From a virus: a stretch of DNA of 20,428 nt. The DNA lies in IMG/VR virus record IMGVR_UViG_3300046459_000567, positions 1 through 20,428 of that record; one strand, 5' to 3'. Made by a program: the position numbers and the translations under genes. Below are positions 2,987-12,446 of this stretch, one piece after another. The stretch's first letter is position 1; each line of letters opens with the position of its first letter. Under the pieces are notes generated by a model, which was given only the letters and a program-made list of their open reading frames with translations, was not told the DNA's origin and ran no database searches.

Positions 2987-3067
2987 CCGCCCGCCCCGTA
3001 CCCCGTGCCCATTGGGGGCGGGCGGGACCAGGCCCCGGCCGGACGCCGATCCGGCCGGGGCCGTTTT
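2987..3067 (+). terminator. Tandem intrinsic terminators after the Cys-rich trio
   Basis: The first hairpin is an 11-bp perfect stem (2987-2997 with 3015-3025). The second is a 12-bp perfect stem (3031-3042 with 3051-3062, loop of eight) followed by GTTTT. Together they isolate the accessory block from attP and the integrase. Confidence 0.85.
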
Positions 3068-3254
3068 GCACCCAACCTTGGATTCGAAGGCGTGCCCACA
3101 GGCTGTGGAAATCGGCGACATAAGCGCAGGTCAAGGGCATGGGTGGGCACCAATGCCCACCCTTTCGAGCAAGATCTTTCCAGTGGTGGCACGAAGCCAT
3201 ATTGGGGTTCCCGAACCTGAGACAGTGACACCACTACGGGTGCAGACTCAGAGC
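3068..3254. other. Probable attP and integrase leader region
   Basis: These 187 bases between the double terminator and the integrase ATG hold no convincing gene. Large serine integrases usually have attP directly beside the gene, and the 3' side is excluded because the integrase overlaps the convergent repressor. Two dyads stand out: a 9-bp perfect inverted repeat at 3141-3162 and GGTTC/GAACC around a CC centre at 3206-3217. Either could centre the roughly 50-bp site with its 2-bp crossover core. The exact core cannot be fixed without the bacterial attB. Confidence 0.45.
3141..3162. repeat. Perfect 9-bp inverted repeat upstream of integrase
   Basis: GGGTGGGCA (3141-3149) and TGCCCACCC (3154-3162) flank CCAA. 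It could be part of attP, an operator for integrase, or a short hairpin terminator because TTTCG follows. Confidence 0.5.
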
Positions 3255-4766
3255 ATGAGCCCAACTCTCCGCGCCGCCGTCGACGTTGCCGCAGGCACCA
3301 AGACCCGCGCCGTCATCTACTGCCGCATCAGCCAGGACCGCACCGGCGCCGGCCTCGGCGTCGAGCGACAGCGCCAGGACTGCGAAGCCCTCGCAGAACG
3401 CAACGGCTGGAACGTCGTCGAGGTGTACGTCGACAACGACGTGTCCGCCTACAGCGGCAAGAAGCGCAAGGACTACCTGCGCATGCTCGACGACCTGGAG
3501 CAGGGCACCGCCACCATCGTCATCACCTGGCACACCGACCGGCTCCACCGCAGCCCGACGGAGCTGGAGAAGTACATCGCCCTGTCCGAGCGCCGCGGCA
3601 TCGCCACGCACACCGTGCAGGCCGGGACCGTCGACCTCGCCACGCCGTCCGGGCGGATGACCGCGCGGATCCTCGGCGCCGTCGCCCGCCAGGAGTCCGA
3701 GCACAAGGGCCACCGCGTCGCCCGCGCCCGGCAGCAGAAGGCCATGGCCGGCGAATGGGCGGGCGGCACCCGCCCGTTCGGCTGGGGCGTACCCACCGGG
3801 GAGACGCAGAAGCGGGTCGACCGGGCGACCGGCGAGGAACTCGAGGTGCCCGTCCTCGACACGAACAAGGTCGTGCCCGAGGAGGCCGAGGCGCTGCGGC
3901 AGTGGACGGACACCATCCTGTCCGGCGGGTCCATCCGCAGCTGCGTGAAGTGGTGCACGGACAAGGGGCTCACCACCACCCGCGGGAACGCGATCACCCA
4001 CCAGGATCTGCGGGACATGCTGAAGCGCCCGAGGAACGCCGGGATCGCGGTCTACAGGGGCGAGGAGGTCGGGCCCGGACAGTGGGCGCCGATCGTCCCG
4101 GAGGAGAAGTTCAGGGCCGTTGTGGCGATCCTGTCCGACCCGTCACGTACCTCGAACCGCGGGGCCCAGCCGAAGTGGGTGGGCTCGCTGCTGTACCTGT
4201 GCGGCCGGGACTGCGGTCAGGGCATGACGGTGACCCAGTCCGGTGGCCGGCAGTACCCGAGCTACAAGTGTCCGACCGGGCACGGCGGCGGGCGGCGGGC
4301 CGAGGTCGTCGACCAGTACGTCGAGGACACGATCGTCGAGCGGCTGTCACGCGACGACGCGGAGGACCTGTTGCTGCCCGGTCCGGACGACGTGGACGTT
4401 GCCGGGTTGCAGGCGGAGAGCGAGCGGATCCGCCGGCGGATGACCGACCTGGCCGGTCTGTTCGGTGCGGGCCAGTTGGAGCTGGGCCCGTTCACCGAGG
4501 GCATGGAGACGGCCCGCGCGCAGCTCGACGGGGTGACGCACCAGTTGGCGCGTGCGGCGATGGTGGACCCGCTCGTCGGCCTGGTCGGCGCGCCGGATGT
4601 GCGGAAGGCGTGGAAGGCGTTGCTGCTGGAGCAGAAGCGCAACGTGCTGCGGGCGGCGCTCGTCGTCACGCTGGTCAAGCCGCGGTCGGGGCGCATGCCC
4701 GACGGCGGGTACTTCGACTACGACGCTGTGCATTTCGCATGGAAAAGGCGCAGCACTCAAGGATGA
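3255..4766 (+). CDS. int: Large serine integrase
   Basis: A 503-residue site-specific recombinase that would join attP to the host attB through a Ser-DNA intermediate. The resolvase domain covers about residues 18-165: YCRIS with nucleophile Ser26, GVERQRQDC, DRLHRSPTELEK, and a GRMTARILGAVARQESE segment leading into the long helix. The recombinase domain begins at GTRPFGW. A zinc-ribbon part includes Cys316, Cys320, Cys339 and His343, and a coiled-coil-like insertion follows (about 380-440). The length suits the family. ATG 3255 fits the start of the resolvase domain, although no strong ribosome site precedes it and in-frame GTGs at 3225 and 3240 are possible. It converges with the repressor, and their ends overlap by 10 bases. 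Confidence 0.95.
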   Translation: MSPTLRAAVDVAAGTKTRAVIYCRISQDRTGAGLGVERQRQDCEALAERNGWNVVEVYVDNDVSAYSGKKRKDYLRMLDDLEQGTATIVITWHTDRLHRSPTELEKYIALSERRGIATHTVQAGTVDLATPSGRMTARILGAVARQESEHKGHRVARARQQKAMAGEWAGGTRPFGWGVPTGETQKRVDRATGEELEVPVLDTNKVVPEEAEALRQWTDTILSGGSIRSCVKWCTDKGLTTTRGNAITHQDLRDMLKRPRNAGIAVYRGEEVGPGQWAPIVPEEKFRAVVAILSDPSRTSNRGAQPKWVGSLLYLCGRDCGQGMTVTQSGGRQYPSYKCPTGHGGGRRAEVVDQYVEDTIVERLSRDDAEDLLLPGPDDVDVAGLQAESERIRRRMTDLAGLFGAGQLELGPFTEGMETARAQLDGVTHQLARAAMVDPLVGLVGAPDVRKAWKALLLEQKRNVLRAALVVTLVKPRSGRMPDGGYFDYDAVHFAWKRRSTQG

Positions 4767-7830: not shown

Positions 7831-8139
7831 GTGAACAGCACCACCACCGTCCTCCCGATCTTCGGGGAGGACACCGAGCAGGACGAGGCGCCGATCCAGT
7901 CGCCTCCGTCCGCTCTCGGCATGGCCGCCGCCGCGGCCCGCCTCGTCGCCTACCGCGACACCGTTTCAGGTGAAACACCCGACGAGCCGCGCGCGCTCCT
8001 CGTCGTCGATTGCCCGTTCTGCGGCACCCAGCACGTCCACTCCGCCGGCCTCGCCTCGGCACCGCGCGTCTGCCCCCGACGCTCGCGCTGCATCGGCCTC
8101 CCGACCGGCACGTACTACTTCCCGGAGGTGACCACGTGA
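7831..8139 (+). CDS. Small zinc-ribbon-like protein carrying a parS-like DNA motif
   Basis: A 102-residue protein starting at GTG 7831, shortly after a GAAGAGAG ribosome site. The N-terminal half is acidic and Ala-rich. The C-terminal half has CPFCGTQHVHS and then a CPRRSRC pair, so two Cys pairs could hold one zinc ion, as in small phage zinc ribbons. It overlaps the primase-like gene by four bases and is probably made with it, so a helper role in replication is likely but unproven. Codons 45-49 (GTT TCA GGT GAA ACA) are a run of non-preferred codons in a gene that otherwise uses G/C-ending codons, and they spell a near-perfect parS site. Confidence 0.75.
   Translation: MNSTTTVLPIFGEDTEQDEAPIQSPPSALGMAAAAARLVAYRDTVSGETPDEPRALLVVDCPFCGTQHVHSAGLASAPRVCPRRSRCIGLPTGTYYFPEVTT
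7963..7976. promoter_or_regulatory. parS-like palindrome (candidate ParB binding site)
   Basis: The sequence GTTTCAGGTGAAAC differs by one base (C to G at the seventh position) from the bacterial and Streptomyces parS core GTTTCACGTGAAAC. The six-base arms are intact. It lies inside a coding gene and is made of non-preferred codons. Binding by host ParB is an inference, and the changed base is in the conserved centre. Confidence 0.5.
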
Positions 8140-8996
8140 CCGACGGGATCGCCTACAACAAGCTCGCCGACCGCGTCCGCGACCTCGGTCTTCAGCACCG
8201 GTTCAGCGGCGGCGCACTGCGCGTCCAAGGTGTCTGCCACGACGGGGACTCCCCGGACACCGTTGCCGTTCGGCGCGGCAACAACGGCGGCGTCGTCATC
8301 CACTGCCACAAGTGCGACGGCAACACCGACTTCCTCGCCGCGATCGGCTGGACCGAGGCCGACCTGTTCGACGAGCCGCTGGCCGAACGCCCGCGCGACA
8401 GGCCCGAAGACGACACGTGGATCCCTTGCCAGGACCGCGGCCACAAGCGGGTCGCCCAGTACGTCTACCGCAACGAGAACAAGGCGGTCGTCCACGGCGT
8501 GACCCGCTGCGACAACAAGTGCTTCGCCCAGTGGCGGCCGGACAACGGCACCCGCTCCGGACGCCGTTGGTCCCTCAACGACAAGGAGGGCAACCGGCTC
8601 GTACCCCTCGTCCCCTACCGGCTGCCCGAGTTGCTGGCCGCGAAGGAAGCGGACCGGGTCATCTGGATCGCCGAGGGCGAGAAGGACGTACACGCGCTCG
8701 TCGACCACGGGCTCGTGGCCACCTGCAACGCGGCCGGGTCCGGGAAGTGGGTGGCTGAGCACGCCGCGTACCTCGAAGGCGCGGACGTGACGATCGTCGC
8801 CGACCGCGACCCCAAGGGCCGCGAGCACGCAGAGCTGGTCGTCGCGTCGCTCCGCGGGCTGGCCCGCACGGTGTACGTGGTCCAGGCCCTCACCGGCAAG
8901 GACGCCCACGACCACTTCGCCGCCGGTCACAAGGACTCGGAGTTCAACCAGGTCTGGGCGCCCGTCCCTCACCCTGCCGACCGGGGGCAGGCATGA
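8136..8996 (+). CDS. Toprim-domain DNA primase-like protein
   Basis: A 286-residue protein related to phage primases. The N-terminal part looks like a CHC2-type zinc finger (Cys34-His35, then Cys57 and Cys60 in HCHKC). A second Cys/His group lies around PCQDRGHK and RCDNKC. The Toprim fold follows: IAEGEKD with Glu180, a central ATCNAAGSGKW turn, and the metal-binding pair Asp223/Asp225 in VADRDPKG. It would make RNA primers, or act as the primase half of a primase-helicase together with the next gene. GTG 8136 is well placed after GGAGG (8123-8127) and overlaps the previous stop. No helicase motif is fused to it. The length is shorter than DnaG (about 600), as expected for a phage or plasmid version. 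Confidence 0.85.
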   Translation: MTDGIAYNKLADRVRDLGLQHRFSGGALRVQGVCHDGDSPDTVAVRRGNNGGVVIHCHKCDGNTDFLAAIGWTEADLFDEPLAERPRDRPEDDTWIPCQDRGHKRVAQYVYRNENKAVVHGVTRCDNKCFAQWRPDNGTRSGRRWSLNDKEGNRLVPLVPYRLPELLAAKEADRVIWIAEGEKDVHALVDHGLVATCNAAGSGKWVAEHAAYLEGADVTIVADRDPKGREHAELVVASLRGLARTVYVVQALTGKDAHDHFAAGHKDSEFNQVWAPVPHPADRGQA

Positions 8997-10558
8997 GCGA
9001 AGAGCCGAACTGGGCCGAGGACGTCAAGGAACCCGACTGGTCGTCCGGTGTCCACGCCGAGGACAGCCAGGGGTGGGACGAAGCGGTCCCCCTGGCGCCC
9101 CCGCCGCCGCTGCCGCTCGACTCCGGTCGACTGCGCGGCATCGGGGTCATGGCGCAGGCCGTGTCCACCAGCCTTCAGGTGCCCGTCGATCTGCCGGCCT
9201 GGCTCGGGATGGCCGCCGTCTCCACTGCGATCGGCGGACGCCGGGCCGTGAGCCCGAAGCCGGACTGGACCGAGCCGGTCACCCTGTACACGATGCCGGT
9301 CGCCGCCCCCGGAGAGATGAAGTCGCCAGCCCTGAGCCTGATGGGCAAGCCGATCTACGCGGAGGAGGAACGCCGCAGGGAAGCCGACAAGGTCGCGGTC
9401 GTCCGGGACCGGCGGGACCGGAAGATGACCGAGGCCGCGGTCACCGAGGCCGAGAACCGCGTCATCAAGGCGAAGGACTCCGCCGCCCGCAGCAAGGCGA
9501 AGCAGAACCTGGAAGCTGCCTACTCCGAGCTGGAGGAACTCGGCGACCCCCTCGTGCACACCCAGCTGGTCGCCGACGACACCACGCCCGAGGCTGCCAT
9601 CGACCTGATCGCCGAGCAGGGCGAGCGGCTCGCCGTGCTGTCCACCGAGGGATCGTTCCTCGGCAACGTCGGCGGCCGGTACAGCAAGTCGGCCAACCCC
9701 GAGATCGTCCTCAAGGCGTGGAGCCACGAGACGCACTCCGTCAACCGCAAGAGCGGCCCGCCCGTCCTGCTCAAGCGCCCGAACCTCAGCCTCGGTCTCG
9801 CCGTGCAGCCCGGGTTCCTCACCGGCATGGGAGAGACCGGCGACGTCTTCGAGGCCCGCGGCCTCATGGCCCGGTTCATCTTCGCCATGCCGACCAGCCG
9901 AGTCGGAGAGCGGACCTACGACAGCGATCCGATCCCGGCCGAGGTGACCGCCGCGTACAACGCGGCCGTCGTCCGGATGATGCAGACGATCCACGACGAC
10001 CCCGAGTACCGGGTGATGAGCCTGGACCAGAAGGCGCAGGATCTCTTCCGCTCGTTCTGGGAAGCGCTGGAGCCGCGACACAAGGCGCACGGCGACCTCG
10101 CCGCGGTGGAGGGCTGGGCGAAGAAGCTGCCCGGTCAGGTTCTGCGGATCGCCGCGGTGCTCGCGCTGTACGAGGAGCCGACCACGCTGACCGTGAGCGG
10201 CGAGGTGATGGACGACGCGATCTCCCTCGTGCCGTACCTGATCCAGCACGCGCGTCTGGTCGCTGACCTCATGTCGGAGGAGCGGCAGTCCAAGCTCGGT
10301 CCCGCGCGCGCCGTCCTGGACTGGGTGCGCCGTGCCGAGCAGCGGGGTCGGTTCGCTGCGAAGGACGTGGAGAAGGCCGTGCGGGGCCAGAAGTGGTGCA
10401 CGGCCATGGAGGACGTGGACGCCGCTATCGGCGTGCTGGAGCACGCCGGGTGGGTCCGGAGGATCGACCCTCCGCCGCGCGAGGACGGGGCTCGCGGCCG
10501 GCCGCCGAAGTCTCGTTTTGTCGCGCACCCGGAGACGTTCAAGGCGAAGGCCGGGTGA
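8993..10558 (+). CDS. DUF3987-type replication protein (degenerate P-loop)
   Basis: A 521-residue protein that resembles the DUF3987/YfjI family, often found beside primases in phages and mobile elements and probably acting as a helicase-like partner. Residues about 45-120 form the conserved head, with a degenerate Walker A, GEMKSP, at 107-112 where ATPases have GxxxxGKS/T. A long charged coiled-coil segment follows (about 123-186), then a core with TEGSFLGNVGGRY and a FEARGLMARFIFAMP stretch. The C-terminal 130 residues look like a winged-helix unit. ATG 8993 overlaps the primase-like stop (ATGA), so the two proteins are made together. No separate RecA-like replicative helicase or polymerase is seen in the window. 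Confidence 0.8.
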   Translation: MSEEPNWAEDVKEPDWSSGVHAEDSQGWDEAVPLAPPPPLPLDSGRLRGIGVMAQAVSTSLQVPVDLPAWLGMAAVSTAIGGRRAVSPKPDWTEPVTLYTMPVAAPGEMKSPALSLMGKPIYAEEERRREADKVAVVRDRRDRKMTEAAVTEAENRVIKAKDSAARSKAKQNLEAAYSELEELGDPLVHTQLVADDTTPEAAIDLIAEQGERLAVLSTEGSFLGNVGGRYSKSANPEIVLKAWSHETHSVNRKSGPPVLLKRPNLSLGLAVQPGFLTGMGETGDVFEARGLMARFIFAMPTSRVGERTYDSDPIPAEVTAAYNAAVVRMMQTIHDDPEYRVMSLDQKAQDLFRSFWEALEPRHKAHGDLAAVEGWAKKLPGQVLRIAAVLALYEEPTTLTVSGEVMDDAISLVPYLIQHARLVADLMSEERQSKLGPARAVLDWVRRAEQRGRFAAKDVEKAVRGQKWCTAMEDVDAAIGVLEHAGWVRRIDPPPREDGARGRPPKSRFVAHPETFKAKAG

Positions 10559-10604
10559 GTTCTTTCCATTAATTCCATGCCCGAGGGGAGGCCGAGGACT
10601 GCCC

Positions 10605-10667
10605 TTGATTACTTACAGGTCTCCCCGTAAGCCAATTTAAAGAGTAATTATTACTCTCTGTAATCAA
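10605..10667. other. AT-rich nested palindromes, candidate replication origin
   Basis: Within the gap after the DUF3987 gene (10559-10791, no convincing gene), GC content drops sharply. TTGATTAC (10605-10612) and GTAATCAA (10660-10667) form an outer 8-bp dyad. Inside are CTTAC/GTAAG arms (10612-10616, 10627-10631) and a perfect 17-bp palindrome, AGAGTAATTATTACTCT (10641-10657), next to AATTTAAA. The motif TTAC/GTAA occurs six times. Location beside primase-like, DUF3987 and SSB genes favours an origin; a strong operator or promoter region is the alternative. Confidence 0.5.
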
Positions 10668-10791
10668 TGAGGGGAGAGGTCATGCGCGGACCGTGAGCAA
10701 CAGGCCACCTCGCCACCCGATCCCCACCCCTGCACGGCATGGAAAAAAGGGAAACAACCCGCACCCGTGCCGCCGCACCCCAAGGAGAGAC

Positions 10792-11433
10792 ATGGCAACC
10801 CAGCCCACGCCGGACAGCACGTCCATCGAGACAGCCACCGTCCAGATCCGCACCCTGAACGTCGGCTCCAAGCAGATGACCCAGGGCATCTTCCGCCAGC
10901 TCATCGAGCAGCCGGCCATCGACAACACCGGACACGTCCAGGGCACCCCGTGGGGAATCGTCAACTACCACCCCGACCGATGCGACGACGCCAAGGAGCA
11001 CCTGCACGTCGTGTGGCAGCTCGGCGACCAGCTGCGCCGCGGGTTCGTCCTGGCCCCGTAGCACGCGTACCTCCGGCATCCGCTGGTGGCCGAGTACGTG
11101 ACGGCCCGCATCCACGAAGGCGCCCGGCGGGATACGCCCCGCGCGGAGCACGGAGATCTCAAGGTCCACCGCTCGGTCACCACCCGAGAGATCGGAGCGA
11201 CCGTCTACGTCCAAGGCGTCCGGTTCGCTGGCACGGTGGGGCCCTTGGCCCTGTCCGTCTTCGATCGGACCGGCTACGACGAGCAGGCCGAGCGCCTTCC
11301 GGCCGACTTCGCGGACGCCTATCAGCGCCCCCTCCGCAGCTCGGCCGAGGTCGCCGAGCTGCTGCCCGTCGAGGCGTACAGGGCGGCCTGGCGCGAACTG
11401 TCTGCCCTGCCCCAGCTGTTCATCGGCCGCTGA
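10792..11433 (+). pseudogene. Unknown early gene interrupted by an in-frame TAG
   Basis: From ATG 10792 (ribosome site AAGGAGAGA, 10782-10790) one reading frame runs to 11433, except for a TAG at codon 90 (11059-11061). The upstream 89 residues include SKQMTQGIFRQL, GTPWGIVNYHP and EHLHVVWQLGDQLRRGFVLAP. The downstream 123 residues continue in the same frame with no ribosome site before any start codon (first candidate GTG 11086). The simplest reading is a nonsense change in a 213-residue gene; TGG to TAG would restore Trp. Amber readthrough or a truncated but working 89-residue protein remain possible. The protein looks soluble and I do not recognise the family. An upstream in-frame GTG at 10693 is less likely as the start. 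Confidence 0.6.
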
Positions 11434-11969: not shown

Positions 11970-12446
11970 ATGGCAGGCGAGACCGTCATCACCGTCGTCG
12001 GCAATCTGGTCGACGACCCCGAACTCCGCTTCACCCAGGCCGGCGCCGCCGTCGCCAAGTTCCGCATCGCCTCCACCCCGCGCGTCTTCAACCGCGAGGC
12101 CAACGAGTGGAAGGACGGCGACGCCCTGTTCCTCACCTGCTCGGTGTGGCGGCAGGCCGCCGAGAACGTCGCCGAGTCCCTCGCTAAGGGCGTGCGCGTC
12201 ATCGTCCAGGGTCGGCTGAAGCAGCGGTCTTACGAGGACGGCCAGGGCGTGAAGCGGACCGTGTACGAGCTCGACGTCGACGAGGTCGGCCCGACCCTCG
12301 CCCGCGCCACCGCCAAGGTCACCAAGAACCCGGCGGGCGGCGTGTCCGGATCCGGACACGGTGGCGGCCAGCAGCAGGGCGGCGGCTGGGGCAACCAGCA
12401 GCCCGCCGCGCAGAGCGCAGGACACAGCGACGAGCCCCCGTTCTGA
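11970..12446 (+). CDS. ssb: Single-stranded DNA-binding protein
   Basis: A 158-residue SSB. The OB-fold occupies about residues 1-112: [65 protein letters not shown] and a [13 protein letters not shown] strand. A Gly/Gln-rich flexible tail follows, ending in the acidic tip DEPPF, which recruits replication and repair partners in bacterial SSBs. ATG 11970 follows AAGGAG (11958-11963). It would coat exposed single strands during phage replication and protect them from nucleases. The length is slightly under that of Streptomyces SSBs (about 180-200). Its place after the primase-like and DUF3987 genes completes a small replication set. Confidence 0.95.

Follow-up and report, generated by a model that had tools for sequence, protein, structure and literature searches.

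What is the function of the AT-rich island that lies just downstream of the DUF3987 gene of a temperate Streptomyces phage? The window, by which we mean the whole stretch of DNA analysed (a 20.4-kb virus record of 20,428 nucleotides), carries genes for an endolysin and a holin-like protein, a serine integrase, a repressor-like XRE regulator, a Toprim primase, a DUF3987 protein, an SSB and an FtsK-like ATPase, and a close relative of the phage is carried by Streptomyces violaceoruber NRRL S-981. Annotated phages resemble the window mostly in ssb, in endolysin or over short lengths of primase/helicase DNA, and their DUF3987 is remote. An earlier note on this DNA had proposed the island as a candidate replication origin, a proposal that is well supported by the comparison of relatives presented here. 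The GC skew, which declines fairly steadily along the window, was left out of the origin evidence. The features discussed are the following.

3153-4766: serine integrase gene
8136-8996, + strand: Toprim (DnaG-like) primase gene (PHROG 6088 'DNA primase', E 9.5e-22; Toprim_3 below cut-off)
8993-10558, + strand: DUF3987 protein, proposed initiator helicase (PF13148, E 9e-85; PHROG 2373 'DNA helicase', E 3.5e-62)
10265-10555, + strand: C-terminal winged-helix domain of DUF3987, amino acids 425-521, proposed to bind the iterons (AlphaFold2 pLDDT 79, pTM 0.69)
10559-10580, + strand: left outer arm GTTCTTTCCATTAATTCCATGC, with TTCC units at 10559-10567 and 10568-10576, then ATGC
10605-10667, no strand: AT-rich inner island, probable DNA unwinding element with inner protein sites (AT-richest 60-mer; 82% mean identity, 17 relatives)
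10605-10612 and 10660-10667, left half on + strand: 8-bp outer dyad TTGATTAC / GTAATCAA
10612-10616 and 10627-10631 (10612-10631), no strand: CTTAC / GTAAG dyad, C10612 being common to the outer dyad
10641-10657, no strand: 17-bp palindrome AGAGTAATTATTACTCT, one of only two palindromes with a half-length of at least 8 in the window
10737-10758, - strand: right outer arm, inverted copy GTTGTTTCC CTTTTTTCC ATGC, 18/22 complementary to the left arm
11970-12446, + strand: ssb (Pfam SSB, E 3e-30)

The island is the middle of a larger element

All the features that the earlier note had listed at 10605-10667 were found: the outer 8-bp dyad, the CTTAC/GTAAG dyad, the 17-bp palindrome, AATTTAAA (10634-10641) and six TTAC/GTAA units, three of each. 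No 60-mer of the window is richer in A+T than that of the island (40/60, the window mean being 17.9, SD 3.7, and the next best value 32), and among 5000 dinucleotide shuffles of its sequence 3.1% contained an 8-bp dyad and 0.26% a palindrome of half-length 8. The island is thus real, but it is surrounded by a larger element of 200 bp (10559-10758), the outer arms of which had been missed. A repeat search revealed a 23-nt inverted repeat surrounding the island, and the outer limits of the element are set by a 22-bp inverted repeat, GTTCTTTCCATTAATTCCATGC and the reverse complement of GTTGTTTCCCTTTTTTCCATGC, with TTCC units spaced 9 bp. The 9-bp units are GTTCTTTCC ATTAATTCC in the left arm and, on the other strand, GTTGTTTCC CTTTTTTCC in the right arm, and ATGC ends both arms. 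No other 22-bp inverted repeat of the window with a spacing of 100-200 bp is as good, and the arm pattern occurs twice in the window (the two arms), and never in shuffles. The midpoint of the arms (about 10658) is near the palindrome centre (10649).

The left arm begins one base past the end of the DUF3987 gene (10558). The element is not directly before ssb as had been stated for the island, since ORF 10792-11061 and further sequence separate the element from ssb, which starts around 11970. A perfect 20-bp palindrome, CGTGTCCGGATCCGGACACG, is present within the 3' part of ssb (12341-12360). With respect to iteron-type origins, repeated short units are found beside the putative initiator gene, two 9-bp units per mirrored arm, with the AT-richest 60-mer of the window in between. 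However, each arm has just two 9-bp units, both imperfect, whereas iteron origins typically have more, and this counts against the origin reading.

Conservation of the element among relatives

We compared 17 homologous gaps (the window and 16 others) flanked by DUF3987 genes whose products are 70-100% identical; in the close group DUF3987 is 88-100% identical to that of the window, and in the distant group 70-74%. The absence of the repeats from this gap in close relatives would, according to the earlier note, refute an origin; the element as a whole is kept in 17/17 gaps, with outer arms and core sequence always directly 3' of DUF3987, while the spacers are not kept. Mean identity to the window in the 17-sequence alignment is 93% for the left arm, 82% for the right arm and for the island, and 57% and 46% for the spacers. 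Most members of the distant group have the same core, TCCATTAATTCCATGC, without mismatch in both of their facing arms, and an arm complementarity of 19/22; L111 is one base off this core in each arm. In the distant group the DUF3987 reading frame extends over the left arm, which in the window group comes after the stop codon, and it is therefore the DNA, not the protein, that is conserved. The outer arms are 87% paired (0/500 shuffles as high), and one pair is swapped on both sides in seven sequences. We read this covariation as two protein sites that would have evolved together rather than as a stem, because pairing is not required of arms separated by about 155 bp.

A rival reading is that the island works as folded DNA or RNA, a three-way junction or cruciform, like the stem-loop origin of pRN1, which needs an intact stem-loop (PMC4234260). 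The window sequence does fold as the earlier note had supposed, single-strand DNA folding giving a three-way shape of -12.2 kcal/mol that no shuffle matched (0/200; z -2.98). This shape is not conserved, however: in the 17 sequences the inner dyads have 77.4% paired cells vs 76.7% in shuffles, with covariation as high in 166/500 shuffles, and the palindrome and dyads decay outside the closest group. The 8-bp dyad has 8/8 pairs in most close relatives and 2-6/8 in the distant group; the CTTAC/GTAAG dyad has 5/5 pairs in the window and 2-4/5 in 13 of the 17 sequences; the palindrome is perfect in the window, L003 and L005 and has only 4-6/8 pairs in distant relatives, its right half, ATTACTCT, being better preserved than the left. 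Inner pairs thus break without covariation, where a pRN1-type stem-loop would show conserved pairing, and Rfam covariance models gave no match at gathering score. These pair counts led us to reject the three-way junction or cruciform as a conserved feature, and a folded structure as the functional form of the island is quite unlikely. What is conserved is the primary sequence and the outer inverted repeat. The structural basis first proposed for the origin is not supported, the inner dyads and the three-way junction being intact in the closest relatives only.

The element could also be a regulatory site, acting on the downstream genes as operator or promoter or terminating transcription after DUF3987, as it lies between genes transcribed in one direction and facing repeats are common in operators too. 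Several observations make this improbable. Scans for tRNA, promoter and terminator detected no such site; the genes downstream of the element differ among relatives while the element stays; the relatives that keep the arms have an XRE regulator of 33-45% identity or none that was detected; and the position of the left arm within the DUF3987 frame in the distant group does not suit such a site. ssb follows the element immediately in L061, is further away in other relatives, and was not detected in the DNA examined around the L005, L008, L010 and L057 loci.

Association of the element with DUF3987

Across 393 Streptomyces genomes the 16-mer TCCATTAATTCCATGC has five occurrences, each next to a close DUF3987 homologue, and four of the five form two facing pairs about 143 bp apart. 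Similarly, every occurrence of the motif in GC-rich viral contigs is beside DUF3987. A search of viral contigs with TTGATTACTTACAGGT alone returned 33 stretches, which outside the window's group are all AT-rich (28-43% GC) and were discarded as chance matches.

The primase gene does not show the same association. The Toprim primase was not detected in L006, L007 and L008, and the element is present in all three. In L006 and L008, DUF3987 is fused in frame to a domain matching the PHROG 'DNA polymerase/primase' family, and L007 shows read-through of the same kind. The L006 fusion (L006:4729-7551) encodes a 940-amino-acid primase/polymerase-DUF3987 protein, the primase part of which is unrelated to the Toprim primase of the window. 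The element stays while the primase is swapped and the downstream genes vary, and therefore belongs with the DUF3987 helicase; DUF3987, rather than the primase or ssb, is its partner gene. The primase swap is informative in this respect, as it shows to which gene the putative origin belongs.

Mirrored iterons downstream of distant DUF3987 genes

A DUF3987 profile search of Streptomyces detected the family in 63 of 386 genomes at E <= 1e-60. We examined 380 bp after the stop codon in a distant set of 66 loci (L112-L177: integrative elements and one circular plasmid), in which the identity of DUF3987 to the window protein is about 30-36% where it was measured. A 20-bp inverted repeat with at least 18 matches is present within these 380 bp in 52/66 loci, vs 0/132 in-gene controls, and mirrored 9-bp iterons of three classes are present in 59/66 (CCGCAnAAn in 17 loci, CCACAGAAA in 12 and TGACAGAAC in 30). 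The strongest repeat spacing in the distant loci is 9 bp, as in the window arms. Many iteron-bearing loci have, in addition, a facing pair GACCTGC / GCAGGTC.

In seven of the 66 loci none of the three iteron classes was found 3' of the gene (L112-L115, L174, L176 and L177), and this too counts against the origin reading. L177 has a differing inverted repeat instead, and L112-L115 are the four highest-scoring distant DUF3987 loci; in these four, DUF3987 is followed at once by another gene or by sequence devoid of iterons of the three classes. Judging from this arrangement, the origin of L112-L115 must presumably be elsewhere or be of other appearance.

The distant loci also bear on the possibility that the element serves the serine integrase as attP, or that it is a site for packaging. 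The phage does carry a serine integrase, and short AT-rich dyads can serve in recombination. However, the integrase gene (3153-4766) is about 6 kb off, and prophage records L060 and L061 have it right at their edge, which places attP there; the element is neither next to int nor at a prophage junction, as a serine-integrase attP would be. Furthermore, distant DUF3987 genes that adjoin a site-specific integrase of different annotation have elements at the same place, and no terminase gene was found near the element. Both an attP and a packaging function are highly improbable. The likely attP region is an AT-rich stretch at about 3064-3260 that extends from shortly before the serine integrase gene into its beginning.

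The DUF3987 winged helix as a predicted reader

The window protein is a clear member of its family (Pfam PF13148 score 285 bits, gathering cut-off 27), and a helicase function has been predicted for DUF3987 (PMC5862659). AlphaFold gave a poor model of the full-length protein (pLDDT 45), which was not used for fold claims; the helicase activity of the protein therefore rests on family annotation. Amino acids 104-112 contain the Walker A-like motif of this DUF3987 group, PGEMKS, which lacks the usual GK glycine; ANRKS, GNRKS or SEKKT is found in distant homologues.

The last 97 residues (amino acids 425-521) were modelled with a helix-strand-helix-helix-strand-strand order. Foldseek searches with this winged-helix model returned mostly winged-helix transcription factors and replication terminator protein; the best E value was 0.007, which supports the fold class only. 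Nothing useful came from PDB sequence searches with the DUF3987, primase and winged-helix sequences. The iteron class follows the winged-helix sequence, and the classes differ in the stretch that links strand 1 to helix 3. This agreement could result from common descent alone, ancestry differing by class too. In the open literature on DUF3987, as far as it was read, no experiment on DNA or origin binding by a DUF3987 protein was found, nor any on this phage.

A model for initiation and comparison with known systems

Taken together, these observations make it very probable that 10559-10758 is the replication origin of the phage, with iteron arms bound by the DUF3987 winged helix and an AT island that melts. 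The mirrored arms of 9-bp-spaced iterons would be bound by the C-terminal winged helix of the DUF3987 helicase, and helicase complexes on the two facing arms would cause melting of the AT-rich island between them. The primase of the element, Toprim here and a helicase-fused primase/polymerase in some relatives, would prime next, and host or phage proteins would then start two forks.

The best explanation by analogy is that the element may work like the origins of SaPI, SCCmec-Cch2, P4 and pWTY27. In SaPIs, the origin is just after the initiator helicase gene and is read by the helicase C-terminal domain of Rep (PMC7581432). As in the window, a short-repeat origin is immediately 3' of the helicase gene and a separate primase gene is nearby, but the helicase family and the repeat sequence are different, SaPI is a satellite and not a phage, and recognition is predicted in the window. 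For SCCmec Cch2, binding of the C-terminal domain to repeats downstream of the helicase gene was shown by binding assays (PMC7581432). These repeats are in the same gap as those of the window; however, a 23-bp direct-repeat region is needed and inverted repeats are dispensable for binding, and the primase-polymerase is unrelated.

The alpha protein of P4 binds origin repeats by a winged helix (PMC4234260). It shares with the window a Toprim-type primase, a helicase and a C-terminal winged helix, for which binding to origin repeats is predicted in the window, but has all three in one protein where the window has a separate Toprim primase gene and a DUF3987 helicase. The Streptomyces theta plasmid pWTY27 has a prim/pol gene, a gene for a 522-amino-acid RepA and then an essential 300-bp repeat region bound by RepA (PMC3583192). 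Its resemblance to the window is in layout (a prim/pol and a Rep gene, on the complement strand, followed by direct and inverted repeats), and its iterons, GTGGGAAC/TTCCCAC, are different. The pRN1 origin is within 166 bp after the replication gene (PMC4234260), and in the AICE SLP1 the Prim-Pol gene and the following gene are in a region important for replication (PMC3218068).

We lean, with reserve, towards a broader proposal: DUF3987 would be a widespread origin-binding initiator helicase, its winged helix reading mirrored 9-bp iterons directly after its own gene; helicase and origin would form a portable unit that survives the exchange of unrelated primases (Toprim or primase/polymerase), and the iterons and winged helix would co-evolve, so that Streptomyces phages and integrative elements would fall into compatibility groups. 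DUF3987 occurs in many phages, plasmids and islands as a family of unknown function, and would in this way be given a role that is concrete and testable. Mirrored 9-bp repeats just after the DUF3987 stop codon may provide a rule for finding origins from sequence alone, with new small Streptomyces replicons as a possible yield.

The Streptomyces Prim-Pol/DUF3987 modules (L112-L177) resemble the window by their homologous winged-helix DUF3987 and by mirrored 9-bp iterons directly 3' of it; unlike in the window, the iterons are more numerous and regular, the primase is different, and a small HTH gene and an integrase follow where annotated. A module of this type is carried by the circular Streptomyces plasmid NZ_CP107792.1, where nested mirrored 9-bp iteron arrays are present at L138:6405-6665.
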